From Actinotalea alkalitolerans (GTDB taxonomy: Bacteria > Actinomycetota > Actinomycetes > Actinomycetales > Cellulomonadaceae), in contig NZ_JAMBPP010000018.1 in assembly GCF_023369855.1 (NCBI RefSeq), positions 1 through 64,000 on the forward strand: 64,000 bases of DNA. Direction: 5' to 3'. Every line of letters begins with the position of its first letter. Position 1 is the first letter of the stretch. Below, piece by piece: positions 21,268-64,000 of the stretch. Below the pieces are notes generated by a model. It was given only the letters and a program-made list of their open reading frames with translations. It was not told the DNA's origin and searched no databases. The translations under genes were made by a program, and so were the position numbers.

Positions 21268-21274
21268 CACTGCT

Positions 21275-21363
21275 CCATCGGTCCTGGCGTGAGCACCCGC
21301 ACCCTGTCACCAGGGGGGTTGCTGCGGCGTCGTCGAGCCAGATCTCTCGGCCGCTCTTGATGG
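21275..21363 (-). promoter_or_regulatory. SAM-I (S-box) riboswitch before metF
   Basis: Read on the minus strand, an 89-nt element begins CCATCAAGAG, then GGCCGAGAGATCTGGCTC, then GACGCCGCAGCAACC, a P3 hairpin CCCTGGTGACAGGG, GGTGCTCACGCC, and closes with GATGG. These match the S-box core (kink-turn plus GCAACC and GGTGCTnAnnCC). P1 is CCATC/GATGG; its 3' strand includes two bases of the metF Shine-Dalgarno (GGAG, 21276-21273), so SAM binding should mask ribosome binding. TACCGT at 21377-21372 is a well-placed -10, putting the transcript start almost at the aptamer. The remaining 21364-21528 holds nothing else I can name. Confidence 0.82.
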
Positions 21364-21528
21364 GTCACCTGACGGTAGAGCGGCGGGGTGGCTCCAGGAC
21401 ACGGCCCTAGGTCCCAGGTGCCGGACCGGACGTCTCACCCCTCGGTCAGTGGCCGGCTCGTGGTGACATGCAGGTGCGCCGGGCGGTGCATGGTGGGGGA
21501 ATAGAGGGCTGGGTACTGGAGTTCTGCC

Positions 21529-47966: not shown

Positions 47967-49571
47967 TCAGGGCTGCTGGGAGTCGTGCCCGCCGATGATC
48001 GGTCGGCCTGGCCAGGTGGTGGCCCCGGTGCCCTCCGGGGAGCCGAGGAGGTCGTCGAAGGAGCTGACCTGGGAGTCCCTCGCGGCGACCCGCGTGGTCG
48101 TGCGCCGTGGCGGAGTGCGACCGTGGCGCTGAGGTGTCGTGTCCGGGATCGCGGCGGACGACGCGGAGCGCCGCCGACCAGCCCTCTTTCGGTTCGCCTT
48201 CTTCGTCATACCGGTGCTTGTGCTCGTCGGCGAGTAGTCGTAGTACGTGTAGTTCTCGCCGTGCTTGCGCGACAGGCCGTTGAGCACGATGCCGAGCACC
48301 CTGGCGCCGACCGTCTCGAGGGAGCCGATGGCGTCCCCGAGCTGTGCTCGGTGGAGCTTGCCGGAGCCGACGACCACGAGTGCACCCCCCGCGAGCTTGG
48401 CCAGGATGGCTGCGTCGGTCACCGGCAGCAGGGGTGGGGTGTCGAGCAGCACGATGTCGTACTGGCGGGTCAGGTCGGCGAGCAGGTTCGCCATGGACCG
48501 GGAGCCGAGCAGCTCGCTGGGGTTCGGTGGGATCTGGCCGGACGGCAGGACGTGCAGCAACCCGTTGCCCCAGGGCTGGACGACGTCCTGGACGCTGGCG
48601 CGTCCGATGAGCACCGTCGTCAGCCCGACCTCGCCCTCGATGCTCATGTACTCGGCGACGGACGGTCGACGCAGGTCGGCGTCGACCAGGATCACGCGTG
48701 ATCCGGAGTCGGCGAGCGTGATCGCGAGGTTGATGGAGGTTGTCGACTTGCCCTCTCCGGGTAGCGCAGAGGTCACGACGATGGAGTGCGGCCGGTCGGC
48801 GATGTCGAGGAACTGGAGGTTGGTCCGCAACCGGCGGAAGGCCTCCGCACGCAGGCTGTGAGGGTTCGTCTGGACGATGAGCGGATGTTTCGGGGCGTCT
48901 TCGTCGTAGCCGACGGTGGCGATGACAGAGGTATCGGTCACGTGCTTGACGTCGTCGTCGGACCGGACCTTGGTGTCCAAGATCTCACGGAGCAAGGCGA
49001 TCCCGAACCCCAGTGCGAGACCGAGGACGAGTCCGAGCGCGACGTTGCGCTGGGGGTTGGGGCTCGCCGGGTCGAGGGGCACCGTCGCCTCACGCACGGT
49101 GTTGATCTGGACAGGGGAGGGCTGGCCGTCGGCCGGCTGCTCGAGCTCGGTGACCTGGGTTGCCAGGCTGATCGCCACCGCGTTGGCGACGTCACGCGCC
49201 TCCTCGGGATCCTCGCGAGTGACCGAGATGTTGATCAGCACTGTGTCCAAGGGGGAGCTCGCAGCGATCGAGCGGCCGAGCCCCTCGGGAGAGTCCGTCA
49301 GGCCAAGCTCATCGATGACCGGCATCAGCACGCGAGGACTGGTGACCAGATCCGTGTAGGACTTGACCTGGCGCTGGGTGAAGTTGCTGCCCTGGACGAG
49401 GTCCGCCGTGGTCCCTCCGGTGCGCACCGAGACGAAGACCTGCGACCTGGCCTGGTAGGTGGGGGTGGCGAGCAGTGTCACAGTGATCGCCGACGCCACG
49501 ACGAGAAGCGCGACTAGGAGGATCGAGACCCAACGCTTGCGTAGGACTGCCAGGTAGTCGTGAAGTTCCAC
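47967..49571 (-). CDS. bacterial tyrosine kinase / polysaccharide chain-length regulator
   Basis: A 534-residue fused Wzz-BY-kinase protein. Two membrane helices (about 15-36 and 177-195) bracket an extracellular Wzz domain; the cytoplasmic ATPase has Walker A PGEGKSTTS (about 271-279), Walker A' VILVDADLRRPS and Walker B DIVLLDTPP. A YTYYDY cluster near residue 440 is a candidate autophosphorylation site, followed by a basic disordered tail. It controls chain length and export of the polysaccharide. GTG 49571 has GGAG six bases upstream. Confidence 0.9.
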   Translation of the reverse strand: MELHDYLAVLRKRWVSILLVALLVVASAITVTLLATPTYQARSQVFVSVRTGGTTADLVQGSNFTQRQVKSYTDLVTSPRVLMPVIDELGLTDSPEGLGRSIAASSPLDTVLINISVTREDPEEARDVANAVAISLATQVTELEQPADGQPSPVQINTVREATVPLDPASPNPQRNVALGLVLGLALGFGIALLREILDTKVRSDDDVKHVTDTSVIATVGYDEDAPKHPLIVQTNPHSLRAEAFRRLRTNLQFLDIADRPHSIVVTSALPGEGKSTTSINLAITLADSGSRVILVDADLRRPSVAEYMSIEGEVGLTTVLIGRASVQDVVQPWGNGLLHVLPSGQIPPNPSELLGSRSMANLLADLTRQYDIVLLDTPPLLPVTDAAILAKLAGGALVVVGSGKLHRAQLGDAIGSLETVGARVLGIVLNGLSRKHGENYTYYDYSPTSTSTGMTKKANRKRAGRRRSASSAAIPDTTPQRHGRTPPRRTTTRVAARDSQVSSFDDLLGSPEGTGATTWPGRPIIGGHDSQQP

Positions 49572-49733
49572 TGCATGCTCCTGCTCCGTGCGGCGTCGTG
49601 GCCGCAACCGACCTCGGGTATGTTCTCACGCCCGGTCCGGGACCCCGATGCGCCGAGCACCATTCTGTGCAGTTGTCCGGAATGCCCATCTTCCATGGTC
49701 CGGTGGCGGCCTCCTCCCTGCCGGAGGTCATCC

Positions 49734-49754
49734 GTTGGTGCGGCCGGCGCCAAC
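49734..49754. promoter_or_regulatory. inverted repeat before the epimerase operon
   Basis: GTTGGTGC-N5-GCGCCAAC pairs in seven of eight positions and is followed directly by TACAGT (49755-49760), a plausible -10. It may be an operator at the start of the rightward polysaccharide operon. Confidence 0.35.
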
Positions 49755-49802
49755 TACAGTGGCGAAGGCGGCGAACGCCACACCGCAGATGAGAGGAACC
49801 GC

Positions 49803-50729
49803 ATGCGCCTGTTGATCACGGGAGGAGCCGGATTCATCGGCTCAAACCTGACCAAGGCCGCGGAGGCGGAGAACATCGACGTCACGGTGCTCGACGACCT
49901 CTCGACGGGCCATCGGGCCAACCTCGACGGCACCCGCGCCAGGTTCGTCGAAGGATCAGTTCTTGATCGTCGGTGTGTTCGCGACGCGCTCACCGGAGTC
50001 GACACGGTTGTCCACCTCGCGGCACTCGGCAGCGTCCCGCGTAGCATCAAGGACCCGATGGCGAGCCACATGGCGAACGCCACCGGAACGCTCACCGTTC
50101 TGGAAGAGAGCCGGGATGCGGGTGTCGAGCACATCGCGGTGTCGTCCTCCAGCTCGGTCTACGGGATGAACCCCGCCTTGCCCAAGGGCGAGCGTGAGTG
50201 GGTGCGCCCCATGAGCCCCTACGCCGTCTCGAAGCTCGCCGCTGAGCAGTACGTCCTGGCCTATCAGCAGTCCTTCGGCATGCGGACCCTGGCCTTCCGG
50301 TTCTTCAACGTCTATGGGCCGGGACAGCGTGCAGGTCACGTGTACGCGGCGGTGATCCCGGTCTTCATCGACGCGATGCTCCGAGGAGTCCCGCTGCCGA
50401 TCAACGGCGACGGGTCGAACTCGCGGGACTTCACCTACGTGCGCACTGTCTGCCAGGTCCTCGTAGATGCGGCGACGCGCCGCGTCACCCACCCCGAGCC
50501 GGTCAACCTCGCCTTCGGGACCAACACGACGCTCACCTCGCTCGTCGACACGCTGCGCGACGTCTCGGGCAGGCCGGTCGAGGTCGAGCACCGTGAGCCG
50601 CGGCCCGGGGACGTCAGCCACTCACAGGCGGACAACGCCACGTTGCGCTCGCTCTTCCCTGACATCGCGCCAGTGACCCTGGACCGAGGGCTCACCGAGA
50701 CGTTGGCCTGGATGGAGGCGTCACGGTGA
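49803..50729 (+). CDS. NAD-dependent nucleotide-sugar epimerase
   Basis: A 308-residue extended SDR of the UDP-glucose/GlcNAc 4-epimerase type. LLITGGAGFIGSNL is the NAD loop, VSSSSSVYG the catalytic Ser region and SPYAVSKLAAEQY holds YxxxK. RDFTYVRTVCQ is typical of epimerases acting on UDP-sugars. AGAGG lies six bases before ATG 49803. The next gene overlaps by 4 bp (GTGA), so the two probably act in sequence, perhaps UDP-GlcNAc C4 epimerisation followed by oxidation. Confidence 0.83.
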   Translation: MRLLITGGAGFIGSNLTKAAEAENIDVTVLDDLSTGHRANLDGTRARFVEGSVLDRRCVRDALTGVDTVVHLAALGSVPRSIKDPMASHMANATGTLTVLEESRDAGVEHIAVSSSSSVYGMNPALPKGEREWVRPMSPYAVSKLAAEQYVLAYQQSFGMRTLAFRFFNVYGPGQRAGHVYAAVIPVFIDAMLRGVPLPINGDGSNSRDFTYVRTVCQVLVDAATRRVTHPEPVNLAFGTNTTLTSLVDTLRDVSGRPVEVEHREPRPGDVSHSQADNATLRSLFPDIAPVTLDRGLTETLAWMEASR

Positions 50730-51988
50730 AGAAGCTCGTTGTCATCGGCCAGGGCTACGTAGGCCTCCCCATGGCGCTGCGCGCCGCCGAGAAGGGATTC
50801 GTCGTCGTCGGTCTCGACACGAACGAGCGGATCGTTCGTGAGCTCGGTGTCGGACGCTCGCACATCGACGACGTCTCCAACGAGGAGCTGGCTGAGGGGC
50901 TTGCCGCGGGCTACACCGCATCGAGCGACCCGACCTGCATCGCCGATGCAGACGTCGTCGTCGTGTGCGTCCCCACTCCGCTCAGTGTCGATGGGGGCCC
51001 GGATCTGCGCCCGGTCGAGTCGGCGGCGCGGACCATCGGTCAGCACATCAGGCACGGGGCACTCGTCGTCCTGGAGTCGACGACGTATCCGGGCACCACC
51101 GAAGAGGCCTTCGCGCCTCTGGTGAGCGGTGACCTCGAGATCGGCCGGGACATCCACGTGGCGTTCTCTCCCGAGCGGATCGACCCGGGCAACGCGACCT
51201 TCGGCGTGCAGAACACGCCCAAGGTGGTCGGTGGCCTCACCCCGGCGTGCACGCGTGCGGCGAAGGACTTCTACTCCGTGTTCGTCGACGTCGTCGTGGA
51301 GGCGAAGGGTGCCAAGGAGGCCGAGATGGCCAAGCTCATCGAGAACACGTTCCGCCACGTCAACATCGCCCTGGTCAACGAGATGGTCCGGTTCTCCCAC
51401 GAGCTGGACATCGATCTCTGGGACGCGATCGACTGCGCAGCGACCAAGCCCTTCGGGTTCATGGCGTTCCGTCCCGGTCCGGGGGTCGGCGGCCACTGCA
51501 TCCCCGTCGACCCGTCGTACCTGAGTCACCGCGTCAAGGCCCAGCTCGGGTACGCGTTCCGGATGGTCGAGCTCGCCGAGGAGATCAACGCTGCGGCGCC
51601 CCTGTACGTCGCCGACCGGTTGTGGCAGGCGCTCAACGACAACCGAAAGTCGGTGAACGGCTCGAAGGTGCTCCTGCTGGGAGTCACCTACAAGCCGGAC
51701 ATCTCCGACTGCCGCGAGAGTCCGGCTGTGCCGCTCGCCCAGCGGCTCGCGTCGTGGGGCGCTGAAATCAGCTATCACGACCCGTTCGTCCCGCAGTGGT
51801 CTCCGCGAGCAGGCGCGGCGAGCTTGTCCAGCGTCGAGGATCCGTACCGGGCCGCGTGCGAGGCGGATGCCGCGATCCTCCTGCAGGCCCACCGCCACTA
51901 CGACCTCGAGCGGCTGGCCGCGGAAGGCTCGCTGCTGCTCGACACCAGGGCTGCGCTTCCCTGGGGTGGTGGGGTCAACCGCCTCTAG
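50726..51988 (+). CDS. UDP-sugar 6-dehydrogenase, WecC/UDP-ManNAc dehydrogenase-like
   Basis: A 420-residue UDP-sugar dehydrogenase that oxidises C6 of a UDP-hexose or HexNAc to the uronic acid. LVVIGQGYVGLPMALRAAEK binds NAD, VVVCVPTPL and LESTTYPGTTE follow, KLIENTFRHVNIALVNE holds catalytic Lys/Asn, and GPGVGGHCIPVDPSYL the active-site Cys. The GGHCIPVDP sequence is closest to the UDP-HexNAc (WecC/WbpA/TviB) group rather than UDP-glucose dehydrogenases. It predicts an acidic sugar in the polymer. Confidence 0.87.
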   Translation: MKKLVVIGQGYVGLPMALRAAEKGFVVVGLDTNERIVRELGVGRSHIDDVSNEELAEGLAAGYTASSDPTCIADADVVVVCVPTPLSVDGGPDLRPVESAARTIGQHIRHGALVVLESTTYPGTTEEAFAPLVSGDLEIGRDIHVAFSPERIDPGNATFGVQNTPKVVGGLTPACTRAAKDFYSVFVDVVVEAKGAKEAEMAKLIENTFRHVNIALVNEMVRFSHELDIDLWDAIDCAATKPFGFMAFRPGPGVGGHCIPVDPSYLSHRVKAQLGYAFRMVELAEEINAAAPLYVADRLWQALNDNRKSVNGSKVLLLGVTYKPDISDCRESPAVPLAQRLASWGAEISYHDPFVPQWSPRAGAASLSSVEDPYRAACEADAAILLQAHRHYDLERLAAEGSLLLDTRAALPWGGGVNRL

Positions 51989-52049
51989 TGAGTCCACGAG
52001 AGCTCAGCGCATCCACTGATGCTCCCTCGACCCCCTCCCGGAGGCGTGA

Positions 52050-53249
52050 ATGCATTCCAGCCCCCATGAATCGACGCTCATCGTGGCGACGGACGTGCGA
52101 GTGATCGAACGCGAGGAGAGCCGGTTCGTTTCGACTCATCCGACAGTAAGTGTCGACAGCCTTGAGCGATACCTCCTGACCGGGCTGGAGTGCCGCCTTG
52201 TCGCACGCGTCGCCGAGCCGACCAGCGACAGGGCGGTTGGGGATCTGGCGCATCCACGCCTCACGGTCATCCCGTTGTACGGCGACGACAAGAAGCTGAG
52301 CGCCGTACGACGGGTGCTCGCAACTGTGGCGCAGCTCATTCGCGTTCCCATCTCACGCGGTGACATCGTGGTGGTCAGGCTCCCGGAGTTCATTGGCGTC
52401 CTCCTGTGGTTCCGCGCGAAGCTCGCACGGGCGGTGGTCGTCTCGAACGTCGTGGCCGACGTGACGGCTGTCCGCGAGCACTTCGGGCGGGCGGCACCCG
52501 CAGGGACCTGGCTGCTGCGTCGTGCTGTCAGATGGATGGTTGCCCGCTCCTCGGCGACGGCCTACGTCACTCGCCGTACGTTGCAGGCGCTCTACCCCCC
52601 TCGATCGACCGTGCCAAGCATCAGTGCGAGCAACGTGCGACTTGGGCCCGAGTCCTTCACCCACGCGGCCCGCACCTATGACCATGTCGGACCCGACAGC
52701 ACCGTCCGTTTGGTCGCAGTTGGGTCGCAGGAGTCGCTCGCGAAGGGCCACGACTTCTTGATCAGGAGCCTGATGCCACTGAAGGGGACGGGGCTCTCGG
52801 TGACCCTGGATCTGGTGGGAGAGGGCTCGTGCCAAGCTCAGCTGGTGGCGCTCGCTCAGCAGCTCGGCGTCGAGGATCGGGTGAGGTTCCTGGGCTTCGT
52901 ATCTGACCGTACGTCATTGAACGCCACGCTCGACGCGGCGGACTTCTTCGTCATGCCCTCTCGAACGGAGGGCCTACCTCGAGCGATGGTCGAAGCCATG
53001 GCGCGAGGACTGTGCTGTATGGGCTCCGCCGTGGGCGGCATCCCGGAACTGGCTCCGCCCCAAGCTCTGTTCAGGGTCGACGACGTGGAGTCGTTCCGCC
53101 AAGTCCTGATGCGCCTGGTCAGCGACCCGTCGATGGCGGGACGAATCGCTGCGCAGCAGTGGAGGGACGCCCTGGACATCAGCAACTCTGCGAAACCAGA
53201 TCGATTCGCGCAGTTTCTGACCACACTCGGTAGACGCGATGGCGCGTAG
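52050..53249 (+). CDS. glycosyltransferase, family 4 type
   Basis: A 399-residue GT-B glycosyltransferase. The C-terminal domain has LVAVGSQESLAKGHDFLI, VRFLGFVSDRTSL and the GT4 signature FFVMPSRTEGLPRAMVEAMA with its Glu pair. The N-terminal domain is variable and has no membrane helix. Base composition is clearly lower in GC than the flanking kilobases. Its end overlaps the flippase gene by 11 bp. Donor and acceptor sugars are unknown. Confidence 0.8.
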   Translation: MHSSPHESTLIVATDVRVIEREESRFVSTHPTVSVDSLERYLLTGLECRLVARVAEPTSDRAVGDLAHPRLTVIPLYGDDKKLSAVRRVLATVAQLIRVPISRGDIVVVRLPEFIGVLLWFRAKLARAVVVSNVVADVTAVREHFGRAAPAGTWLLRRAVRWMVARSSATAYVTRRTLQALYPPRSTVPSISASNVRLGPESFTHAARTYDHVGPDSTVRLVAVGSQESLAKGHDFLIRSLMPLKGTGLSVTLDLVGEGSCQAQLVALAQQLGVEDRVRFLGFVSDRTSLNATLDAADFFVMPSRTEGLPRAMVEAMARGLCCMGSAVGGIPELAPPQALFRVDDVESFRQVLMRLVSDPSMAGRIAAQQWRDALDISNSAKPDRFAQFLTTLGRRDGA

Positions 53250-54450
53250 TCGTCGGCGCGTGATCCTTGGACTGGTCGACCAAGGTCTCTCGAGCGCCAG
53301 CAACGCCCTGGTTCTCGTTGCCTTCGCACGAAGCAGTGGTGTGGAACAGTTCGGCCGGCTTGCTCTGATCTTCCTGATCCTGACGACGCTCCTAAGCCTC
53401 ACGCGCGGCTTCTTGGGAGTGCACCTCGTGCGTCTTGGTGGCGACCACCGGAGATTGGTGGTGGAAGGGCGCTTTGCCGTCGCGACCGGCATCCTTCTCG
53501 GTTTGACTGTCTCGCTGGTTGCGATCCTTGTGTGCTACGCGATCGGTGCCGCCCCAGCGGTCTGGGTGCTTGCACTTGCACCGCCATTCATCATCTGGCA
53601 AGACGTGCTTCGCTACTACTCAGTCGCGTCTGGGAGGGCGGGTTCGGCAGTCCTGTCCGACGGCCTGTGGTGTGTGGGAAGCGTTGCAGCGGTTGTGCTA
53701 ACCGCTCTCTCCACTCAGGTTTCACCGTTCCACATCAGCCTCCTGTGGGTGTCCTCAGCAGCAGCGGCGCTCCTCGTCCTCGCCACGACCGTGCCGCTGC
53801 CACCACGGTGGCGAGGACTCCGCGAGTGGATGGCCGACGGGCGGGCAGAACGGTCGTCCTTCGGGCTCGAAGGAGTCGTCTCCGCTCTGAACAGTGTGGC
53901 TGTGCTTGCTGTGGTCACGGCCATACTCGGTCTGAGCGCCACCGCGGCGCTCCGTGGCGCGGGGACGATCATCGGGCCCCTGAGCCTCCTGATGTCCGCA
54001 CTGCCACTTGTCGTCATCCCGGAGCTTGCGCGAGGGGGTGCCGCTCACGATGGTCGCGAGGCTTGGAGAAGGCTGCGATGGTGGGGTTTGTCGATCAGTT
54101 TGCTCGCACTCTCCATAGGAGTGATCGCCCTCGTATTGCCTTCCTCCGTGGGGACCGCTCTGCTCGGTGAGACGTGGCCGTACGCGCAGCGAGTGCTGCC
54201 GCTGATGGCGCTGGAGTACGCAGCACTTGCATGGCTCCATGCGGCGGGCGCCGGATTCCGCCTCCTTGGTCAGGGGCGGCGTCTTCTCTCGATCCGGGTG
54301 CTGGCGGCCGTCAGTGCTCTCGGCGCAGCCGGCTTGTTGGCGTTGACCGGCGATGTTGTGTTTGTGGCTGCAGGTCTGGCACTCGTTGCGATGGGAGCCG
54401 CCGTCGTTGCCGTGATCGTACTTCGTGGTGTCGGTCCTGCGACCAATTGA
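53239..54450 (+). CDS. polysaccharide flippase (Wzx-like)
   Basis: A 403-residue membrane protein with about twelve hydrophobic helices (for example ALVLVAFARSSGVEQFGRLA, VLALAPPFIIW, LGAAGLLALTGDVVFVAAGL) in the pattern of Wzx/MATE-like lipid-linked oligosaccharide flippases. The N-terminal GLVDQGLSSASNALVLVAFA stretch is typical. It would move the undecaprenyl-linked repeat unit across the membrane. It shares the reduced GC of its neighbours and converges on the polymerase gene with a 10-bp gap and no clear terminator. Confidence 0.78.
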   Translation: MARSRRRVILGLVDQGLSSASNALVLVAFARSSGVEQFGRLALIFLILTTLLSLTRGFLGVHLVRLGGDHRRLVVEGRFAVATGILLGLTVSLVAILVCYAIGAAPAVWVLALAPPFIIWQDVLRYYSVASGRAGSAVLSDGLWCVGSVAAVVLTALSTQVSPFHISLLWVSSAAAALLVLATTVPLPPRWRGLREWMADGRAERSSFGLEGVVSALNSVAVLAVVTAILGLSATAALRGAGTIIGPLSLLMSALPLVVIPELARGGAAHDGREAWRRLRWWGLSISLLALSIGVIALVLPSSVGTALLGETWPYAQRVLPLMALEYAALAWLHAAGAGFRLLGQGRRLLSIRVLAAVSALGAAGLLALTGDVVFVAAGLALVAMGAAVVAVIVLRGVGPATN

Positions 54451-54460
54451 TGCATGTGCC

Positions 54461-55966
54461 TCAGTGGCCGTGATCACGATCAGGCTGCCGGAGAGACGGT
54501 GCGGAGTTGTGGCTGCGTCGGGCCGGGTCCGTCGACCGTCTCGTCGAGACCGTCCTGGCGTAGGCGAACAGGATCGTCGCCAAGATCGAGGGGATGAGCA
54601 GACTCTTGATGGTGCCGAGGGCGTCGGAGCGAATCGCGACGGGAAGCACGATGACGAACAGTGGGTAGAGAACTGCCCTCGTCCGGACGATGGGCCACCC
54701 TGTCCGAGCATGTGCCCATGCGCCGAACAGGCCGAAGACGAAGCACGCCACGAACAGGCCAATCGCTCCAAAGTTCAGATAGCCCTCAGCCGGGACACTG
54801 AAGGCAAGGCCCTGGTTTGGATTGGTGAATCCGATGAGGTCCCTGAAGGCATATGTCCCGGTATCGTACGGCGGTCCGAAGAGGCGATTAGCGACCGGCG
54901 ACGGAAGCTGCCTCAGGAGGCCTGAGACATAAGTGCTGCCCGAAGCGTGGACAACGGTGGAAGGGACCTCCAGCGCCGTCGCGCCCGTGGTGTAGGTAGC
55001 GACTGACCAGTCTGTAAGGACGGTGCTCAGCGCGGAAGCCGTCGTTGATACCGATCTGGCTGCGTCCCGGTAGGCCAGTACACCCACCGCGAATGCGAGC
55101 ATAGCGCCGAAACCGATCGCGATACGTCTGAGGCGGATCCTCGCTCGTGTTGCCGCATAGAAGACCGCAAGCAGAACCATGAGGGCTGTTCCGCGTTCTC
55201 CGGAGAGGCCCATTAGGGCTACCACACCGAGCGCAACCCCCCAGTCGTAGACGGTCATGAGGCCGGTCGGTCTCTTCGCACGGTGGCTGGAGAGAACGAT
55301 GAGCACTGCGATGGGAGTGAGGATTGCGGTGAGCGATTCTAGTGTCTCAGCCGTGCCGTAGGTTGTCTGGCCGGCGCCGCGCACCAAGAGCGCCCCAGTG
55401 GCTACGTCTCGTGCTGACACGGCCAAGGGAAGAAGCATGAGGATGCGGGCGGCCGTCAGGAGTGTCCGCCTGTCGTGCGGTATAGCTTGTTCGTCGCGGC
55501 GGGGCGTGAACCTCATCCCGAGACCTAACGTCGTGCCGACGACCGCGAGGCTCATGAGCAGAGGCGTCAGGTTGGACATCCTGGCAGCGCCGAATCCGAG
55601 AAACGAGCTGCCGTTCACAAAGATCGCCCAGGCCGGGGTAAGGAATGACATCGCGATATACGCGTTCGGGAAGAGCAAGGGATCGAATGCATCGAGGTAG
55701 CCCTTGTCTGCGCGCGACCTACGCATACCGATGGCTATTCCCACAGCAGATGCTGCCGCGGCGAGGATGAGAGGAACTCGAGGGTCTCCGAAACTCAACG
55801 TGGCCAACGTCGCGAGGAATCCTGTCGCCAGCGCGGCAAATATCGCAAGAAGGTGAGGGATTACGGAATGATGTCGCGCATCACCATGAAGGGGTGTTGT
55901 TGGTGACCGGTATCGTCGCGCCTTGGGTGACCTGAGCGTTACGGCTCGACCGGTGTCAGAGGTCAC
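54461..55966 (-). CDS. polysaccharide polymerase (Wzy/O-antigen ligase-like membrane protein)
   Basis: A roughly 501-residue protein with ten or more hydrophobic helices and a large loop (about 300-400, GSTYVSGLLRQLPSPVANRLFG). Such a layout with NPNQGLAFSVPAEGYLNFG, whose acidic Glu is conserved, fits O-antigen polymerases, which join repeat units outside the membrane. GTG 55966 overlaps the end of the upstream 2-epimerase gene by 11 bp; GTG 55972 is also possible. Base composition is among the lowest in GC in the window. It is the last gene of the leftward operon and faces the flippase tail to tail. Confidence 0.72.
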   Translation of the reverse strand: MTSDTGRAVTLRSPKARRYRSPTTPLHGDARHHSVIPHLLAIFAALATGFLATLATLSFGDPRVPLILAAAASAVGIAIGMRRSRADKGYLDAFDPLLFPNAYIAMSFLTPAWAIFVNGSSFLGFGAARMSNLTPLLMSLAVVGTTLGLGMRFTPRRDEQAIPHDRRTLLTAARILMLLPLAVSARDVATGALLVRGAGQTTYGTAETLESLTAILTPIAVLIVLSSHRAKRPTGLMTVYDWGVALGVVALMGLSGERGTALMVLLAVFYAATRARIRLRRIAIGFGAMLAFAVGVLAYRDAARSVSTTASALSTVLTDWSVATYTTGATALEVPSTVVHASGSTYVSGLLRQLPSPVANRLFGPPYDTGTYAFRDLIGFTNPNQGLAFSVPAEGYLNFGAIGLFVACFVFGLFGAWAHARTGWPIVRTRAVLYPLFVIVLPVAIRSDALGTIKSLLIPSILATILFAYARTVSTRRSTDPARRSHNSAPSLRQPDRDHGH

Positions 55967-57155
55967 GAACACCTGCCCATGCGAAGTGTCGCCTAGCGGT
56001 GGACTGGATGAATGCCGCGACCCGGCTCGAGGTGTCTTCGACGAGGTAGTCAGCCGGAGTCGCGCGCCGTCGTTCGCCCCTGGCCAACCTGGTGCCGCTG
56101 ACCAGGCGCACCGCCGCCACGACATCCCGCGCGTCGAGCCCTGTCATCACGATCCCCCCCGTGTCGAGCGCCTCGGGCCGTTCGATCGAGTCCCGCAAGG
56201 TGACCGCGGGGAAGCCCAGGATCGTCGACTCCTCGGCGATGGTGCCCGAGTCGGACAGCACGCACCGTGCGCCCAGCTGGAGGCGGTTGAAGTCGTGGAA
56301 GCCGAAGGGCTCGTGGAAGACGACTCCCTCGGGCTCGGTCCAACTCGGGAGGGCTTCGAGCCGCTTGCGTGTGCGGGGGTGTGTCGAGACGTAGATCGGG
56401 AGCGCCCACTCGGTGCGCACCGCCGTCAGGCAGTCGAGGAGCATCTGGAGCCGGGCGGGGGAGTCGACGTTCTCCTCGCGGTGGGCGCTGACCAGGAAGT
56501 ACTCGCCCTCGGTGACCCCCAGGCGGGTCAGGACGTCCGAGGCATCGATCTGCTGGCGGTAGTGGTCGAGCACCTCACGCATCGGGGAGCCGGTGTGCAG
56601 GATCCGCCGGGGGTGCAGCCCCTCCGCCAGGAGGTTGCGGCGGGCGTGCTCGGTGTACACGAGGTTGAAGTCAGCCACGTGGTCGACCATCCGGCGGTTG
56701 GTCTCCTCGGGGACCTTCTCGTCGAAGCACCGGTTCCCCGCCTCCATGTGGTAGACGGGGATGCGCATCCGCTTGGCCATCACCGCGGCGATGCAGCTGT
56801 TGGTGTCACCCAGGACGAGCACGGCGTCGGGCCGCTCGGTGAGCAGCACCTCCTCGGTGCGGATGAGCGTCTCGCCCAGCACCCTGCCCAGGGAGGACGT
56901 GTCGACACCGAGGAGGTGGTCGGGGGCGCGGATCCCGAGATCCTGGAAGAACACCTCGTTGAGCGTGAAGTCGTAGTTCTGCCCGGTGTGGACGAGCACG
57001 TGGTCGAACGCCTCGTCGAGTCGTGCGATCACCCGGGACAGGCGGATCAGCTCGGGTCGGGTCCCGACGATCGTCATCACCTTGAGCATCGGACCGGGAC
57101 CAACCTTCGTGTCGTGACGGGCTTCGTCAGGGGTCTTGCCTTCAAAGGTGGTCAC
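55956..57155 (-). CDS. fnlC: UDP-N-acetylglucosamine 2-epimerase family, CapG/FnlC-type
   Basis: A 399-residue UDP-HexNAc 2-epimerase. VMTIVGTRPELIRLSRVIA binds UDP, HTGQNYDFTLNEVFF, HMEAGNRCFDEKVPEETNRR and VSAHREENVD are family landmarks. In the UDP-L-FucNAc pathway this step epimerises UDP-L-PneNAc/TalNAc-type intermediate at C2. GTG 57155 overlaps the stop of the CapF-like gene (GTGA), which supports the start and the pathway; ATG 57089 lies just before the conserved domain. Its high GC differs from the neighbouring polymerase. Confidence 0.87.
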   Translation of the reverse strand: MTTFEGKTPDEARHDTKVGPGPMLKVMTIVGTRPELIRLSRVIARLDEAFDHVLVHTGQNYDFTLNEVFFQDLGIRAPDHLLGVDTSSLGRVLGETLIRTEEVLLTERPDAVLVLGDTNSCIAAVMAKRMRIPVYHMEAGNRCFDEKVPEETNRRMVDHVADFNLVYTEHARRNLLAEGLHPRRILHTGSPMREVLDHYRQQIDASDVLTRLGVTEGEYFLVSAHREENVDSPARLQMLLDCLTAVRTEWALPIYVSTHPRTRKRLEALPSWTEPEGVVFHEPFGFHDFNRLQLGARCVLSDSGTIAEESTILGFPAVTLRDSIERPEALDTGGIVMTGLDARDVVAAVRLVSGTRLARGERRRATPADYLVEDTSSRVAAFIQSTARRHFAWAGVRDL

Positions 57156-58264
57156 GTCCCACCCGGTCCATCGTCGCGGACGACCTTCTCCGGGAACGTG
57201 TCCGGCGCTGCGGGGTCGAAGAGCTCGTGCGTCCAGAAGAGCGTGGTCAGGTCCGAGCCGCCGGTGTTCGTGATGTTGTGAACCCACAACGGTGGCATGT
57301 CCACAGCCACGGGTGCGTCGCCGTTCACGTCGAACGAGACGACGTCGTCGGTGAACAGGCGGCGTAGCGAGATGCGCGCGGTGCCGCCGATCACCACGAA
57401 ACGTTCAACCTTGCGCAGGTGGAAGTGCTCACCTCGGGTGACTCCGGGGCGTGTGGTCGAGGCGAAGGTCTGCCCCTGCCCGCCGTGGGCGCGGACCACC
57501 TCGACGAGGCTGCCCCGCTCGTCGCTGCGCGGGCTCAGCGTGATCGGGTAATGCTCCGGGAATCGCGCTGCGCGCAACGTGTTGAACAGGTCGATGTCCA
57601 GGTCGGTCAGCAGCGGCGGGATGTCACCCGTGGCGTACAGGGCGTTGAAAGTGCGAAGCGTCTCGAAGACGCTGAGCACCGTCGTCGGAGTTCCCGGGGG
57701 GTCGAGGCGGTCCTCGGTGGTCGTCAGGGCCTCGACCAGGGCACGAGCCGCGCCCTGGACGTGCAGCAGGTCGACGGGACGGTCGGCGATCTCCGGGACC
57801 TCTCCGGCGAGGACGGCGTGCACGAAGGTCGCCACGAAGGAGTTGTAGCGCGGGCGTCCGTGCTCGCCGAACAGGTTCGGGAGTCGGACGTCCACGAAGG
57901 CTGAGCCCAGTTGGCCTGCAGCAGCCGACAGGGCGTCCGCGGCGGCACCCTTGCCGACGCCGTAGGATGTCCCGTTGCCCGCCTGGATCGAGTTGGTGTA
58001 CACGATGCGAGGGCTCGAGCCGCTCGCCAGTGCGGCGGCGGCGACGTCCTGGGCGAGGCGAAGGTTACCCTGCTCGACCTCGAGGTCGGTCGCACGGTTG
58101 ACCCCTGCGACGTGGATGATCGCGTCGACGCCACGCATGAGCGTGGTCAGGTCACCCCACGATGCGCGCGTCACCGCCACGACGTCGTGCCCGGTCATCG
58201 CCCGGAGGTGCGCTCGGGTGTGCCAGCCGAGGAACCCGGCGGCACCGGTCAGCAGGACCTTCAT
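57152..58264 (-). CDS. fnlB: CapF/FnlB-type epimerase-reductase with cupin domain
   Basis: A 370-residue bifunctional protein: an N-terminal SDR (about 1-240; VLLTGAAGFLGWHTRAHL, TNSIQAGNGTSYGVGK with YxxxK) and a C-terminal cupin (about 250-365; RGSLVEVVRAHGGQGQTFAS; GEHFHLRKVERFVVIGG). CapF/FnlB acts between CapE/FnlA and CapG/FnlC in making UDP-L-FucNAc: the cupin epimerises C3 and the SDR reduces C4. It overlaps both neighbours by 4 bp. The cupin metal motif HFHLRK has Leu where S. aureus CapF has His. Confidence 0.87.
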   Translation of the reverse strand: MKVLLTGAAGFLGWHTRAHLRAMTGHDVVAVTRASWGDLTTLMRGVDAIIHVAGVNRATDLEVEQGNLRLAQDVAAAALASGSSPRIVYTNSIQAGNGTSYGVGKGAAADALSAAAGQLGSAFVDVRLPNLFGEHGRPRYNSFVATFVHAVLAGEVPEIADRPVDLLHVQGAARALVEALTTTEDRLDPPGTPTTVLSVFETLRTFNALYATGDIPPLLTDLDIDLFNTLRAARFPEHYPITLSPRSDERGSLVEVVRAHGGQGQTFASTTRPGVTRGEHFHLRKVERFVVIGGTARISLRRLFTDDVVSFDVNGDAPVAVDMPPLWVHNITNTGGSDLTTLFWTHELFDPAAPDTFPEKVVRDDGPGGT

Positions 58265-59292
58265 CGGTCGGCTCCTGTCAGCGCCTGGATCTCCGGGAGC
58301 TCCAGGAGCAGGGACTTGGTCTGGTCGACGTCCATGCGCTCGGTGCTCGCCGAGGTGTAGTCCTCGTGCTCGATGACCTCCGGCTCGCCCTCGTCGAAGT
58401 AGAGCTCGTACTGCATCGAACGCGCGTCGAGCGGGACCCGGAAGTACGCGCCACGGTCCTCGGCCTTGACCATCTCCTCGCGGGACAGGAGCGTCTCGTG
58501 CAGCTTCTCCCCGTGCCGCGTACCGATGCGGCGCAGGTCGGGGTCGTCCACGCCGAGAAGCTGGGCGACCGCCGTCGCGAGCACCTCGACGGTGCAGGCA
58601 GGGGCCTTGCGGACGAAGAGGTCCCCGGGCTCGGCGTGGGTGAAGGCGTACTCGACGAGGTCCACCGAGGCCTCGAGGGACATCAGGAAGCGCGTCATCC
58701 GGGGTTCGGTGAGGGTCAGCGGCTCTCCGGCGAGCACCTGCTTGACGAACAGTGGGATGACCGATCCGCGCGAGTACATGACGTTGCCGTAGCGGGTCAC
58801 CGAGACCGTCGTCCCGGAGGTGGGGTGGTTGCGGGCGAAGGCCTGCGCCGTCTTCTCCATCAGCGCCTTGGACATGCCCATCGCGTTGACCGGGTAGACG
58901 GCCTTGTCGGTGCTCAGGAAGACCACCGACCGGACGCCGGCGGACGAGGCGGCGTCGATCACGTTCTGACTACCCACGACGTTCGTCTTGACCGCCTGGT
59001 CGGGGAAGAACTCGCACGACGGGACCTGCTTCAGGGCTGCGGCGTGGAACACGAAGTCGGTGCCGACCACGGCGTTCGCCACGCTCGAGGGGTCGCGGAC
59101 GTCCCCCAGGAAGAACTTGAGACGCGAGTCCGAGAAGCGGTTGCGCATGTCGTCCTGCTTCGCCTCGTCGCGCGAGAGTACGTGGACGGCGTGGACGCCT
59201 CGCCTCAGCAGGTGACCCACCATCGTGGAGCCGAACGATCCGGTGCCTCCGGTGATCATCACGGTGGCGCCGAGCATCGGGTCGGATGTCAT
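58261..59292 (-). CDS. fnlA: UDP-GlcNAc 4,6-dehydratase/5-epimerase, CapE/FnlA-type
   Basis: A 343-residue short-form polysaccharide-biosynthesis SDR. VMITGGTGSFGSTMVGHLL binds NADP, AALKQVPSCEFFP and AMGMSKALMEK are signatures; the active site has Met in place of the SDR Tyr (MGMSK), as is normal for CapE. It starts the conversion of UDP-GlcNAc to UDP-L-FucNAc. ATG 59292 has AAGGAG nine bases upstream; an in-frame ATG at 59343 overlaps the upstream gene's stop by 4 bp but adds 17 polar residues not found in the family. Confidence 0.9.
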   Translation of the reverse strand: MTSDPMLGATVMITGGTGSFGSTMVGHLLRRGVHAVHVLSRDEAKQDDMRNRFSDSRLKFFLGDVRDPSSVANAVVGTDFVFHAAALKQVPSCEFFPDQAVKTNVVGSQNVIDAASSAGVRSVVFLSTDKAVYPVNAMGMSKALMEKTAQAFARNHPTSGTTVSVTRYGNVMYSRGSVIPLFVKQVLAGEPLTLTEPRMTRFLMSLEASVDLVEYAFTHAEPGDLFVRKAPACTVEVLATAVAQLLGVDDPDLRRIGTRHGEKLHETLLSREEMVKAEDRGAYFRVPLDARSMQYELYFDEGEPEVIEHEDYTSASTERMDVDQTKSLLLELPEIQALTGADR

Positions 59293-59339
59293 GGAATGGA
59301 TCTCCTTGTGCAGCGGTGGAGAAGGTCGGTCGGCCGACG

Positions 59340-60596
59340 TCATCGGGCCACCGCCTCCAGCGACTCGACGATACGGGCTGCGGTGACCTGGGCGGTGAGG
59401 TGCTGCTCGTAGTACCTGCGCCCTCGCCGAGCCATGGCCCGACGGCCGGCGGGGCCGACGTCGTGCATGGCGAGCACCGCGGACGCCAGCGCGGACGCGT
59501 CACCTGCGGCGGCGGTGACGGCCGCCCCGGACTCGCGCAGGAGCCGGGCTCCGTCACCGTCGAGGTGGCCGATCACGGGCACCTCGGAGGCGAGCAGCGA
59601 AGCGATCTTGCTCGGGGTCGTGAGCCGCAGGAACGGTGAGGCAGCGAGCGAGACCAGCTGGGCGTCGGCGGAGGCCATGAGCGCGGGCACCGACTCCTTG
59701 GGGACGCGGCCGTGGAACGTGACCGAGGACAGCCCTCGCCGCCGCGCGTCGGTCTCGAGGCGGTCGCGGGCGATACCGTCCCCGACGACCGCGAAGCGGA
59801 GGTGATCGTGGCCGGCGAGGATCTCGGCTGCGTCGAGCAGCGTCTCCAGGCTCTGTACGTCGCCGATCGCACCGACGTACATCACGGTGAAGGGCCGGTC
59901 GGGGGCGACGTCGACACCGGCACCGTCATCCTGCCCATCACCACCCACACGGTTCGTCGGACGGAAGAGCGACTCGTCGGTCGGGTTGGGGACGTAGATG
60001 ATCTTCGCGGGGTCCGCCGAGGGGTGCCTCTCGAGGATGAGGTCCCGCACACCCGGGGAGATCACCCCGATGACGGCCGCCCGTCGCTCGGTCAGCCGGA
60101 CGATCCCGTCGATCACCCGTGCCGCGACCCGCCCTGCTGCGCCGCCCGGGAACATGCCGCTCTCGAGGAGGGAGTCCGGCCACACGTCCTGGACGTGCAG
60201 GAAGTAGGGAACTCTCCCGTAGCGGGAGTGCAGCAGCAGTGGCAGGCTCACCGACACCGGGGAGTTGTAGACCCACAGCGCATCGGCGCCGCGCAGCGCC
60301 CCGGACGTCGAGGCCGACAGAGCGAAGCTGGCGTAATTCATCGACCTGCCGAGGGCCGACCCGTCATGGCTGGGATGGAGCGGCACCCGTGTCACCGAGA
60401 TGCGCGGGGCCGGCCGCGAGACCTCCCGCCACCGCTGGGTGTACCCGGGGTAGACCGTGCCCAGCGGGTAGTTGGGGTACCCGGTGAGGACGCTCACGGT
60501 GTGGCCGGTCCGGGCGAGCTCACGCGCCAGGACCCCGGGGATCGCTGCCGGACCCGGTTCGGGGTCGAACCACTGGGAGAGCATCCCGATCCTCAT
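59340..60596 (-). CDS. glycosyltransferase, WbuB/FucNAc transferase-like
   Basis: A 418-residue GT4 glycosyltransferase. MRIGMLSQWFDPEPGPAAIP is the typical opening of the WbuB group, HVQDVWPDSLLESGM the middle signature, VMYVGAIGDVQSLETLLDAA and SLAASPFLRLTTPSKIASLL the donor domain. In enterobacterial clusters wbuB sits beside fnlABC and is assigned L-FucNAc transfer; the same order here argues for that role. ATG 60596 overlaps the stop of the fusion gene (60593-60596). Confidence 0.84.
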   Translation of the reverse strand: MRIGMLSQWFDPEPGPAAIPGVLARELARTGHTVSVLTGYPNYPLGTVYPGYTQRWREVSRPAPRISVTRVPLHPSHDGSALGRSMNYASFALSASTSGALRGADALWVYNSPVSVSLPLLLHSRYGRVPYFLHVQDVWPDSLLESGMFPGGAAGRVAARVIDGIVRLTERRAAVIGVISPGVRDLILERHPSADPAKIIYVPNPTDESLFRPTNRVGGDGQDDGAGVDVAPDRPFTVMYVGAIGDVQSLETLLDAAEILAGHDHLRFAVVGDGIARDRLETDARRRGLSSVTFHGRVPKESVPALMASADAQLVSLAASPFLRLTTPSKIASLLASEVPVIGHLDGDGARLLRESGAAVTAAAGDASALASAVLAMHDVGPAGRRAMARRGRRYYEQHLTAQVTAARIVESLEAVAR

Positions 60597-62599
60597 CGGC
60601 CACCCTCCGCCCGCGGGCGGAGCGTCTCCCGGACGTACGACCGCCCATCGAGGCTCACCGACCGGGCCCACGACGCTTCCTGCCTCTGGCCAAGCCACAT
60701 CACCTCTACGCGCCGTACCAGACCGTTCAAGCCTGGGACCACGCGCCCAGCGAGGTAGCCGATGCTCACAAACGCACGGCAGGCCGATGCCGGGAGCAGG
60801 AGCGGGCGGCGCCCACCGGCAGCTTCCAGGACATCGGCGGTCGTGAGCCCCTCCCACGGCTGGAGGACGATCGAGGGCACGGCCCCGGGGTGGGAGCCCA
60901 CGTGCCGGACGAACTCCACGAGCCCGTCGAGCGAGCTGACGACCGTCGGACGGTCACCCGGACGTGCCGTGGAGGCGAACCGGGACCGAGCGACGCGCTG
61001 GAGCTGGACCGTCGTGGGACGGCCCGGTCCCTGCACGGACGTGGCACGGACGACGACGACGCCCGTACCGTCCGGTGACGGCCTCCAGGCGTCGAGGAGG
61101 AGCGCTGCCTCACCGACCGCCTTCGAGCGAGAGTAGGGCGAGAACGGGGACGTCTCCGACGACTCGTCCAGCACACCCCTGCGGCCCTGCACGGCCGCAG
61201 AGCTCAGATGGACAAACCTGCGGGCGCCCGCCAGCGCCGAGGCGGCTGCGGCGACCGCGGGCAAGAGCGAGTTCGCTCCCGAAAGGGCCGCTCCCGAGGG
61301 CCCGTCGGGTGCGGCGATCCCCGCCGCGTTCACCACGACCTCCGCCCCCTGGAGGTCCTCGACCAGGGACTGAATCGTCACCGTGCAGTGGCGTGCCCGG
61401 AGGGCGGTCTCCCGTGGGGTCGCCGTCGGGTCGAGCTCGAGCCGTGGTGCCGCGACCTCGACGACCTCGAACCCGTGGGTCCGCAGCTCGGCGACCAGCG
61501 CACCGCCGATGAAGCCGCTCGCCCCGATGACAGCCCACCGCGGAGCGGTGCTCGGTGAGGTGGCCGCTGAGATCCGGCCCTCTGGCATGGGGTCCAACGG
61601 CTCTGCATCCGAGCTGAGGAGGCGGGGGAGCGCCAGGTACACCGCGGCAACCGCGGCGATGGCGATCGTCGACACGGCCGTACCACCGGGAGCACCCGGC
61701 AGTGCGAGGAGCCCGAGCGCCGAGGTGAGGGCCGTGGCACCCGCAACGATGGCCGAGGTCTGCACATGGGTGAGTCCACGGTCGGTCAAGCGCTGGTAGC
61801 AGTGCGATCGGTGCGCCTCGAACCAGCGCTCACCGTTGACGACTCGGCGCAGGAGGGTCACCCCCGTGTCGGCCAGGTAGATCGCGACTGGACCCAGGAC
61901 GGTGATCGCCGGGACGCCCTCGGCGAACGCGGCGAGGCACAGGATCGCAATCGTCGCCCCGAGGAGATAGCTGCCGACGTCACCGAGGAACACCGCACGG
62001 CGCCCGAGGTTCCATGGGAGGAACCCGAGGAAAGACATCGCCAGGACCACGCCCCCAAGGACGAGCCAAGGCAGGCCCATGAGGCCACCGACCGTCGCCA
62101 GGGCCGCTCCCACCACCAAGCCGTGCAAACCGGAGATCCCGTCGAGACCGTCCATGAAGTTGGCGACGTTGACATAGGCAGCGACCGCCAGACCTGCCGC
62201 GGGGACGGCCCACCACGGCAGGTCAGAGACGGTCGCGAGCGCCGCCGCCCCGGCCAGGGCGATGAGCAGCTGCGTCACTGCGCGGAACCGCACGGGGATG
62301 CCCTTGACATCCTCGGCCCAGCCGAGGGCTGCCGCCGCCGAGGCAACCGCGAAGAGGATCACGAGGAGCCTCCTGCCCGCCTGGTCTGGGACGAGAACGA
62401 GGGCGAGACCACCGCCAACTGCGACCGCTAGCCACACCGTCAGACCGGCTCCGCGCAGTGCCGGTGCAGTGTGCGACGAGCGGTCGTTGGGAACGTCCAC
62501 CGAGCCTATGCGGCGTAGATACGGCAGCAGGGCCGTCGGTGCGACCGCGCTCACCGCCAGGACAGTAAGGGCAGCAGCGGTCACCGCTCCGAAGGACAT
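60593..62599 (-). CDS. fused WecA/WbpL-type phosphoglycosyltransferase and SDR nucleotide-sugar reductase
   Basis: A 668-residue fusion. Residues 1-325 form a multi-helix PNPT-family enzyme (WecA/WbpL group) that loads the first sugar-phosphate on undecaprenyl phosphate: NFMDGLDGISG (147-157), FLGDVGSYLLG (204-214) and EAHRSHCYQRL (261-271) are its catalytic loops. A linker of about 25 residues leads to an SDR domain (about 354-640; GASGFIGG 359-366, YSRSK 489-493). Separate genes for these two activities (wbpL and wbpK) are adjacent in Pseudomonas; here they are one frame without a break. The SDR may make the 6-deoxy-HexNAc that the transferase uses at once (inference). Confidence 0.85.
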   Translation of the reverse strand: MSFGAVTAAALTVLAVSAVAPTALLPYLRRIGSVDVPNDRSSHTAPALRGAGLTVWLAVAVGGGLALVLVPDQAGRRLLVILFAVASAAAALGWAEDVKGIPVRFRAVTQLLIALAGAAALATVSDLPWWAVPAAGLAVAAYVNVANFMDGLDGISGLHGLVVGAALATVGGLMGLPWLVLGGVVLAMSFLGFLPWNLGRRAVFLGDVGSYLLGATIAILCLAAFAEGVPAITVLGPVAIYLADTGVTLLRRVVNGERWFEAHRSHCYQRLTDRGLTHVQTSAIVAGATALTSALGLLALPGAPGGTAVSTIAIAAVAAVYLALPRLLSSDAEPLDPMPEGRISAATSPSTAPRWAVIGASGFIGGALVAELRTHGFEVVEVAAPRLELDPTATPRETALRARHCTVTIQSLVEDLQGAEVVVNAAGIAAPDGPSGAALSGANSLLPAVAAAASALAGARRFVHLSSAAVQGRRGVLDESSETSPFSPYSRSKAVGEAALLLDAWRPSPDGTGVVVVRATSVQGPGRPTTVQLQRVARSRFASTARPGDRPTVVSSLDGLVEFVRHVGSHPGAVPSIVLQPWEGLTTADVLEAAGGRRPLLLPASACRAFVSIGYLAGRVVPGLNGLVRRVEVMWLGQRQEASWARSVSLDGRSYVRETLRPRAEGGR

Positions 62600-62619: not shown

Positions 62620-64000
62620 TCACGAGCCCGACGACCGGCGGGAGGCCGGGACGTGCGGGAGCGGTGGGCAGGCAACCTCACGCATCCACGAGCCGGCACC
62701 GTCGTGCGAGAGGAGACGAGCCCCCCGGACTGCTGAAGCATCGATCCTCGGCACCGGCACGCTCGTGAGGAGCGGGTTCGCGGTACGCCGCTTCGGCTCC
62801 TGGACCGAGAAGAGTTCCTCGGTGAGCTTCTCCCCGGGACGGAGACCGGTGTACCGGATCTCCACATCCTTGCGGCCCGACATCGCGATCAGCGTGGTCG
62901 CGACGTCGACGATGCGGACCTGGTCACCCATCTCGAGGACCATCACCTCGCCGTCCGCGCCGATCGAACCGGCCTCGAGGACCAGCTGGCAGGCCTCCGG
63001 TATGAGCATGAAGTACCGCTCGACGTCCGGGTGCGTCACCGTCACGGGACCCCCGCGCTCGATCTGCGCGGTGAACAGGTGCACGACTGATCCTCGAGAC
63101 CCCAGGACGTTCCCGAAGCGGACCGAGACGTAGCGGCCCGGCTGGGTGTGGGAGAAGTCCGCAGTGAGCCGCTCGGCGGTCCGCTTGCTGTAGCCCAGGA
63201 CGCACGTGGGATCGGCGGCCTTGTCGGTCGAGATGTTCACGAACGTCCCGACCCCGACCTCGGCCGCGGCCGTCAGGACGTTCAACGTCCCCAGGACGTT
63301 GCTCTTCCACGCCTCGAGCGGGAAGGACTCGAGCAGCGGAAGGTGCTTGAGGGCGGCGGCGTGGAAGACGATGTCGGGCGCAGCCGAGCCGAAGACCTCG
63401 CGCAGGGTGTCCAGGTCGCGGATGTCCGCCAGGACGATCTCGTCACCCTCGAGCAGGCCCTGCCCGGTCAGGCTCATCTGGGTGGCCTGCAGGCCGGACT
63501 CGTCCCGGTCCAGGAGGTACAGCTTGGCGGGGTCGAACCGGGCGATCTGTCGGCACAGCTCCGAGCCGATGGACCCGCCGGCACCGGTGACCAGCACACG
63601 GCGACCCGCGATCTGCCCGGCGATCACCTCGGTGTCGAGCACGATCGGCTGGCGGCCCAGGATGTCCTCGAGGTTGACGTCACGGAGGTCCTGGACCGAG
63701 AGCTTGCCCCCGATGATGTCGTGGAGGGGCGGCAGGACCAACGTGTCCAGGCCTGCCGCCGTGGCCGCCTCCGACAGCTCGCGGACCAGGGCGGCATCCG
63801 CCGACGGCAGGGCCACGACCAGGGCCGACGCGTCGTAGGCACGCGCGACCTCGGCGATGTCCTCGCGCGTGCCACGGACACGCACCCCGTCGATGCGCAG
63901 CCGCCGCTTGGAGCGGTCGTCGTCGAGCAGGGCGACAGGGAAGTACCCCGCCTGCTCATCCCTGACCATGCTGCGCAGGAGCCGTCGACCGGCGTTGCCC
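62620..64000 (-). CDS. FlaA1/WbpM/CapD-type nucleoside-diphosphate-sugar dehydratase, 5'-truncated by the window edge
   Basis: At least 460 residues of a long-form polysaccharide biosynthesis protein; the frame is open to base 64000 and the start, including the expected N-terminal membrane helices, lies outside. The linker Rossmann region (VALLDDDRSKRRLRIDGV) is followed by the catalytic SDR (VLVTGAGGSIGSELCRQIA, NISTDKAADPTCVLGYSKRT, FGNVLGSRGSVVHLF, RPGEKLTEELF). It dehydrates UDP-GlcNAc to the 4-keto-6-deoxy sugar. The position of the SDR Tyr or WbpM Met is Leu here (LGYSK). It feeds the SDR-transferase fusion 20 bp downstream. Confidence 0.88.
   Translation of the reverse strand, partial: GNAGRRLLRSMVRDEQAGYFPVALLDDDRSKRRLRIDGVRVRGTREDIAEVARAYDASALVVALPSADAALVRELSEAATAAGLDTLVLPPLHDIIGGKLSVQDLRDVNLEDILGRQPIVLDTEVIAGQIAGRRVLVTGAGGSIGSELCRQIARFDPAKLYLLDRDESGLQATQMSLTGQGLLEGDEIVLADIRDLDTLREVFGSAAPDIVFHAAALKHLPLLESFPLEAWKSNVLGTLNVLTAAAEVGVGTFVNISTDKAADPTCVLGYSKRTAERLTADFSHTQPGRYVSVRFGNVLGSRGSVVHLFTAQIERGGPVTVTHPDVERYFMLIPEACQLVLEAGSIGADGEVMVLEMGDQVRIVDVATTLIAMSGRKDVEIRYTGLRPGEKLTEELFSVQEPKRRTANPLLTSVPVPRIDASAVRGARLLSHDGAGSWMREVACPPLPHVPASRRSSGS

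Follow-up and report, generated by a model that had tools for sequence, protein, structure and literature searches.

In Staphylococcus aureus, CapN reduces the keto-sugar made by a WbpM-type enzyme with NADPH, CapM loads the product and CapL adds L-N-acetylfucosamine (L-FucNAc), which CapE, CapF and CapG provide as uridine diphosphate (UDP)-L-FucNAc (PMC6441080). A 4-ketoreductase step is also known in Bacillus cereus (PMC4514872), and Pseudomonas aeruginosa possesses sets of WbpK or WbpV with WbpL and WbpM (PMC6804347). Fused initiating enzymes have been described as well: in the Bi-PGTs, a monotopic initiating phosphoglycosyltransferase (PGT) is fused to another functional domain, and Table 1 of the same article gives polytopic PGT domains as "PGT only" (PMC10942596). 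In this study, we analyzed 64,000 nucleotides of Actinotalea alkalitolerans DNA (contig NZ_JAMBPP010000018.1; this whole stretch is called the window), in which one gene (60593..62599, minus strand) encodes a polytopic PGT and an extended short-chain dehydrogenase/reductase (SDR) in a single polypeptide of 668 amino acids. We propose, with a probability of about 0.7, that the product is a bifunctional initiating enzyme of surface polysaccharide synthesis: the SDR half would reduce the product of a WbpM-type dehydratase and the membrane half would load the resulting sugar on undecaprenyl phosphate.

The order of functions that we infer resembles CapD-CapN-CapM-CapL of the S. aureus type 5 capsule, namely dehydratase, NADPH-dependent 4-ketoreductase, loader and L-FucNAc transferase, where CapN would be the counterpart in role of the SDR half. 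In the type 5 system, however, reduction and loading fall to two proteins and CapM is monotopic, whereas here the loader is polytopic and is fused to the reductase candidate. The P. aeruginosa sets share with the window a polytopic WbpL-type loader near an SDR gene and a WbpM gene, but their genes are separate and stand in another order. For example, in a locus on a P. aeruginosa plasmid (L192), an SDR gene, a transferase gene overlapping it by 4 bp and a WbpM-type gene follow each other in this order; on its other side, the SDR gene is flanked by a glycosyltransferase gene of the cluster. The L192 transferase shows 34% identity to the window transferase over 264 aligned positions. Between the L192 SDR and the fused SDR half there is hardly any similarity (24 aligned residues, E-value 0.002). 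By eye, this SDR (L192:3664-4542) seems to be without the Tyr of Tyr-x-x-x-Lys, and it is a poor yardstick for WbpK.

Like the Bi-PGTs, the window protein joins an initiating transferase to a second functional domain. In contrast to their monotopic core, its catalytic half is polytopic with an MraY fold, and it therefore falls outside the Bi-PGTs. It shares fold and catalytic motifs with the WecA/MraY/DPAGT1 superfamily but carries an additional C-terminal SDR, and it lies far below the cut-off of the UDP-GlcNAc-specific WecA model TIGR02380 (67.8 bits versus 326.05). The fusion partners and their chemistry are of known kinds; the fusion of a polytopic transferase with an SDR itself appears to be undescribed, as full-text searches of open-licence PubMed Central papers gave no listing of one that deals with it.

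The fused gene and its two halves

The frame runs on the minus strand from an ATG at 62599 to a stop codon at 60595-60593 and contains 668 codons without an internal stop. The sequence-only reading had described this uninterrupted frame without giving a strand. Because the G+C content at the third codon position is higher than that at the second position across the entire frame, including the junction, nothing points to a shift of reading phase where the halves meet; the gap between the codon-position values is smaller near the junction (0.68 versus 0.80, codons 301-360).

The transferase half (residues 1-327; 61619..62599) matches PF00953 at residues 80-223 with 82.3 bits against a curated cut-off of 27 (E-value 5e-23). 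It possesses the WecA/MraY-type motifs E96-D97, N144-x-x-N147-F-M-D150, G206-D207 and H263-R-S-H266. The SDR half (residues 353-668; 60596..61543) matches PF01370 at residues 356-563 with 66.2 bits against 20.9 (E-value 3.8e-18), and contains the glycines G359, G362 and G365 together with S466, Y489 and K493. Both assignments of the sequence-only reading, a WecA/WbpL-type transferase and an SDR, were thus borne out, and the Ser-Tyr-Lys set of the SDR is intact. Besides the fusion, two further PF00953 proteins are encoded in the genome.

We compared these residues among 141 transferase sequences and 69 SDR sequences, each including 11 from fused proteins. D97, N144, N147, D150, G206, D207 and H263 are invariant across the whole set, in the 11 fused as well as the 130 other transferases. 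H266 is present in 10 of the 11 fused and in 130/130 other transferases, and the first acidic residue (E96 in the window) is Glu in eight fused proteins and Asp in three. The three glycines, S466, Y489 and K493 are kept in 11/11 fused SDR halves. In an alignment with MoeE5, the Asp after the second strand of MoeE5 is replaced by Ala in the window SDR. The next residue, R386, is conserved in 11/11 fused and 56/58 other SDR sequences. The replacement of the acidic residue and the conservation of R386 suit NADPH as the predicted cofactor.

Predicted structure and membrane topology

An AlphaFold2 model of the fused protein, built from an alignment of 46 sequences, consists of two domains (mean predicted local distance difference test 92.1; predicted template modelling score 0.80). 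Residues 3-327 form 11 long helices and residues 353-660 form a Rossmann-type domain. The linker between the halves (residues 328-352; 61544..61618) has low confidence, with block means of 57 and 60 at residues 331-350, and its sequence varies among the fused proteins. We re-examined the structures in Foldseek's own match list by fold comparison. The transferase half matched MraY best with Z 33.5 (root-mean-square deviation 2.3, 282 aligned, covering residues 1-302) and DPAGT1 with Z 31.2 (2.8, 297 aligned, residues 1-309); the SDR half matched extended SDR structures with Z of about 22-23. In the fold alignment, helix 304-327 is additional as compared with MraY.

Both the N- and C-termini of MraY are located outside the cytoplasm. 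Because the number of helices in the model is odd (11, one more than in MraY), the C-terminus and the SDR half would be on the cytoplasmic side, beside the transferase active site and in the compartment that an SDR requires. For WecA, ten to eleven membrane segments are given in a review (PMC5222938).

Recurrence of the fusion

The sequence-only reading had proposed a search of sequenced proteins for co-occurrence of the two domains. We found 11 distinct fused proteins: that of the window, that of genome G369 and those of nine loci in a scan of named genomes. Thus, the fusion is not unique to the window. All 10 other fused proteins pass both Pfam cut-offs (PF00953 and PF01370), and they show 44-53% identity to the window protein.

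The named-genome scan kept 80 of 225 relatives found with two transferase peptide patterns, a design that fusions with other transferases would escape. Nine of the 80 loci carry the fusion. In 37, each half has its own gene and the two genes lie on opposite strands, and in the remaining 34 a single half was seen in the fetched stretch. The nine fused loci belong to three Cryobacterium, two Microbacterium, a Tessaracoccus, a Propionibacteriaceae metagenome-assembled genome (MAG), a Bifidobacteriaceae MAG, whose fused protein is identical to that of genome G442, and a contig binned as Spirochaetia. This last contig (L096, 5370 bases) carries an actinobacterial-looking WbpM-fusion-GT4-FnlA arrangement (GT4, glycosyltransferase family 4) and is probably misbinned. 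Whole-genome searches were also made in taxonomic samples; these evaluate just a few candidates from each genome (3 to 5 where samples were larger), the samples overlap, and the counts refer to the matches listed. Among these matches, the fusion was found solely in the window's own genome in the genus (19 genomes) and family (221) samples, in three genomes of the order sample (396; the window's, G369 and G442), and again in the window's own genome alone in the class (394) and phylum (396) samples. In a plasmid search, none of the 20 records with matches covers 80% of the fusion.

A WbpM-type gene adjoins 10 of the 11 fusions; the exception is L038, where none is found in the 1.5 kb upstream flank. 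The order WbpM-fusion-GT4-FnlA-FnlB-FnlC is seen in 6/11 cases (the window, L094, L095, L097, L098 and L100), and L096 keeps this order up to FnlA, where the contig stops.

Separate halves and the history of the fusion

When the halves are separate, they are usually linked. All 29 genomes of the order sample that possess the SDR half, 3 of them with the fusion and 26 with separate genes, carry the transferase half at a distance below 5 kb on that contig, counted among the matches listed with E-values up to 1e-20. The separate halves are adjacent and overlapping in L012, L061, L072, L074 and L075, and divergent in Arthrobacter and its relatives. In G004, from the same genus, and G204, from the same family, the two genes are adjacent and separate, in different frames.

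Two further Cryobacterium species, C. breve (L137) and C. suzukii (L136), have a separate transferase of the same type, and a different SDR occupies the slot between it and the GT4. In L137, this SDR overlaps the transferase gene by 4 bp and shows 33% identity to the fused SDR half over 181 positions. Its motifs presumably resemble those of the WbpV/CapN enzymes, and a full-length but weak match (24% over 320 positions) connects it with the SDR encoded next to the WbpL-like gene on the P. aeruginosa plasmid. We regard this SDR as a putative analogous replacement, which fits the idea that the slot encodes the enzyme reducing the WbpM product. In C. suzukii, the alternative SDR and the next GT4 lie in one stop-free frame of 833 codons (L136:6762-9263); judging from this frame, the reductase slot may be joined to a glycosyltransferase there instead.

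The phylogenetic trees of the two halves tell different stories. In the SDR tree, the 11 fused sequences form one group, with a support of 84 in the quick tree (69 sequences) and 84/84 in the careful tree (34 sequences), values that are moderate rather than strong; the G004 SDR, which has its own gene adjacent to the transferase gene, is the sister of the fused SDRs (98/91). In the transferase tree, the fused sequences require three changes in both the 102- and the 31-sequence sets. Because the C. luteum fusion joins the unfused C. breve and C. suzukii (96/93), a joint grouping of the 11 fused transferases is disfavored (approximately unbiased test, p-AU 0.0126, 31 sequences). The careful trees were made from hand-chosen subsets (31 of 141 transferases and 34 of 69 SDRs), and the p-AU test was set after the quick tree had been seen. 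L173 and L039 were left out as duplicates of L001 and L101, as were SDR-tree matches of less than 250 query residues and, from the transferase tree, sequences scoring at most 150 bits as well as L040-L056. Judging from the SDR halves, the fused type may have arisen once. The two trees could be reconciled if a fusion broke up in the C. breve/C. suzukii line or if halves recombined; repeated fusion is also possible.

Proposed function and alternative explanations

As the sequence-only reading had stated, a WbpM-type gene lies immediately upstream of the fused gene: it encodes a WbpM/CapD-type UDP-N-acetylhexosamine (UDP-HexNAc) 4,6-dehydratase (62620..63999, minus strand, PF02719 334.5 bits), shares the strand of the fused gene and ends at 62620, 20 bp from it. 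The gene runs past the window end, and its N-terminal part outside the window looks hydrophobic by eye. We propose that this separate dehydratase would produce UDP-2-acetamido-2,6-dideoxy-4-hexulose, and that the SDR half would then reduce the C4 keto group with NADPH to give UDP-D-FucNAc or the corresponding UDP-D-N-acetylquinovosamine (UDP-D-QuiNAc). The polytopic N-terminal half would transfer the sugar-1-phosphate of this product to undecaprenyl phosphate, and the downstream GT4 would add L-FucNAc supplied by the FnlABC-like genes. The fusion would tie one reductase to one loader in a 1:1 ratio. The gene set fits the succession of dehydration, reduction and loading that had been suggested from the sequence.

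Several observations weigh against this proposal. The closest solved structures to the SDR half are mostly NAD-dependent epimerases, the SDR half matched no NCBIfam model at its cut-off, and its family bears no enzyme name in the libraries searched. The FnlA-, FnlB- and GT4-like assignments are all below curated NCBIfam cut-offs, and GT4-Fnl genes in order beside the fusion were not seen in the fetched stretches of 4/11 cases (L038, L093, L099 and L101). Among the matches listed, the SDR half occurs without a close transferase half in G106 (family sample) and G626 (class sample), and in G840, G686, G764 and G772 (class sample) the halves are separated by at least about 20 kb or sit on different contigs. 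The substrate, cofactor, product and topology of the fused enzyme, including the side of the membrane on which the SDR half lies, and any benefit of proximity are inferred.

The gene could in principle be an artefact, in which a sequencing or assembly indel merged two overlapping genes: the adjacent genes of G004 and G204 are in different frames, and an indel at such a junction would join both halves unharmed. The sequence-only reading had named two signs that would refute the fusion: close relatives with two genes, which do exist, and a stop codon lost by sequencing error, which was not borne out. An assembly error is very unlikely, given 11 distinct fused proteins, ten of them in independent assemblies besides the window, and the clustering of the fused SDRs as one group. 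We rejected it on this recurrence; the fused gene is real and not due to chance. A different reading of the SDR half is that it is a UDP-HexNAc 4-epimerase, which would supply the transferase half with UDP-GalNAc, for instance, while WbpM serves another branch. Several of the closest solved structures are indeed UDP-sugar 4-epimerases (6wjb, 7ys8 and MoeE5). We consider this improbable: a WbpM-type gene stands beside nearly every fusion, the window SDR has lost the acidic residue seen in MoeE5 and R386 is conserved, and among the window neighbors examined we noticed no aminotransferase gene whose enzyme could act on the WbpM product.

The remaining explanations concern what the fusion adds to the proposed reduction and loading. 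The chemistry may be unchanged, so that the fusion gives equal amounts and co-localization alone and the intermediate diffuses freely, without the channelling that the sequence-only reading had inferred. To this we give somewhat less than an even chance. Most relatives use separate genes (9 fused against 37 separate among the 80 loci), and the variable sequence and low model confidence of the linker do not suggest a fixed tunnel; on the other hand, the fused state persists across proteins as diverged as those found here. The order of steps might also be reversed, with the membrane half loading the 4-keto sugar before the tethered SDR reduces the lipid-linked sugar. A membrane-tethered reductase would be suitably placed for a lipid-linked substrate, but the functional analogue CapN uses a soluble UDP-4-keto sugar (PMC6441080), and the same SDR family occurs untethered as separate genes; we hold this order to be very improbable. 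A wider version, in which the SDR either reduces the sugar on the lipid carrier or hands its product over without release, and thereby chooses the sugar of the repeat unit, seems unlikely. If the SDR half does decide the sugar, a swap of the SDR module, of the kind that the alternative SDR of the two Cryobacterium species suggests, would change the first sugar of the polymer.

Neighboring genes in the window

The genes downstream of the fusion are also on the minus strand. A GT4-type glycosyltransferase (59340..60596) is WcaI-like (PF13692; NF007640 142 bits, below the cut-off of 276), and it probably starts with an ATG at 60596 that shares bases with the stop codon at the end of the fusion (ATGA). 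It is followed by genes of the UDP-L-FucNAc branch, an FnlA-like UDP-GlcNAc 4,6-dehydratase/5-epimerase (58261..59343; TIGR04130 435 bits, cut-off 730) and an FnlB-like reductase (57152..58264; NF047837 214.5 bits, cut-off 500). The FnlC-like 2-epimerase of the WecB family (55956..57287) exceeds its cut-off (TIGR00236 237.4 bits, cut-off 210.15) from residue 68 onward; these coordinates are the limits of the open reading frame, and the true start is probably further in. A Wzy-like polymerase (54461..56125, open reading frame limits) matches PF14296 with 28 bits (cut-off 26.6). Judged by similarity, a cap5-like D-FucNAc/L-FucNAc set of dehydratase, reductase candidate, loader, glycosyltransferase and FnlA/B/C-type genes stands together in the window, its FnlA, FnlB and GT4 members scoring below their curated cut-offs.

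On the plus strand, at 49560-54450, an epimerase-like gene, a nucleotide-sugar dehydrogenase gene (TIGR03026 403.7 bits, cut-off 189.8), a glycosyltransferase gene and one gene without an NCBIfam match are convergent with the polysaccharide operon. These genes may supply a uronic acid. The sole Rfam match of the window at gathering thresholds is an S-adenosylmethionine (SAM) riboswitch at 21272-21366 on the minus strand.

Significance of the fusion

Polytopic initiating transferases have previously been summarized as single-domain proteins (Table 1 of PMC10942596). The nucleotide sugar of a polytopic transferase is otherwise hard to predict, and a recurring fusion with a presumed sugar-making partner points to it. 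The single polypeptide lets reduction and lipid loading be measured together. Moreover, the fusion points to a function for an SDR family whose scanned members reach no curated NCBIfam cut-off.

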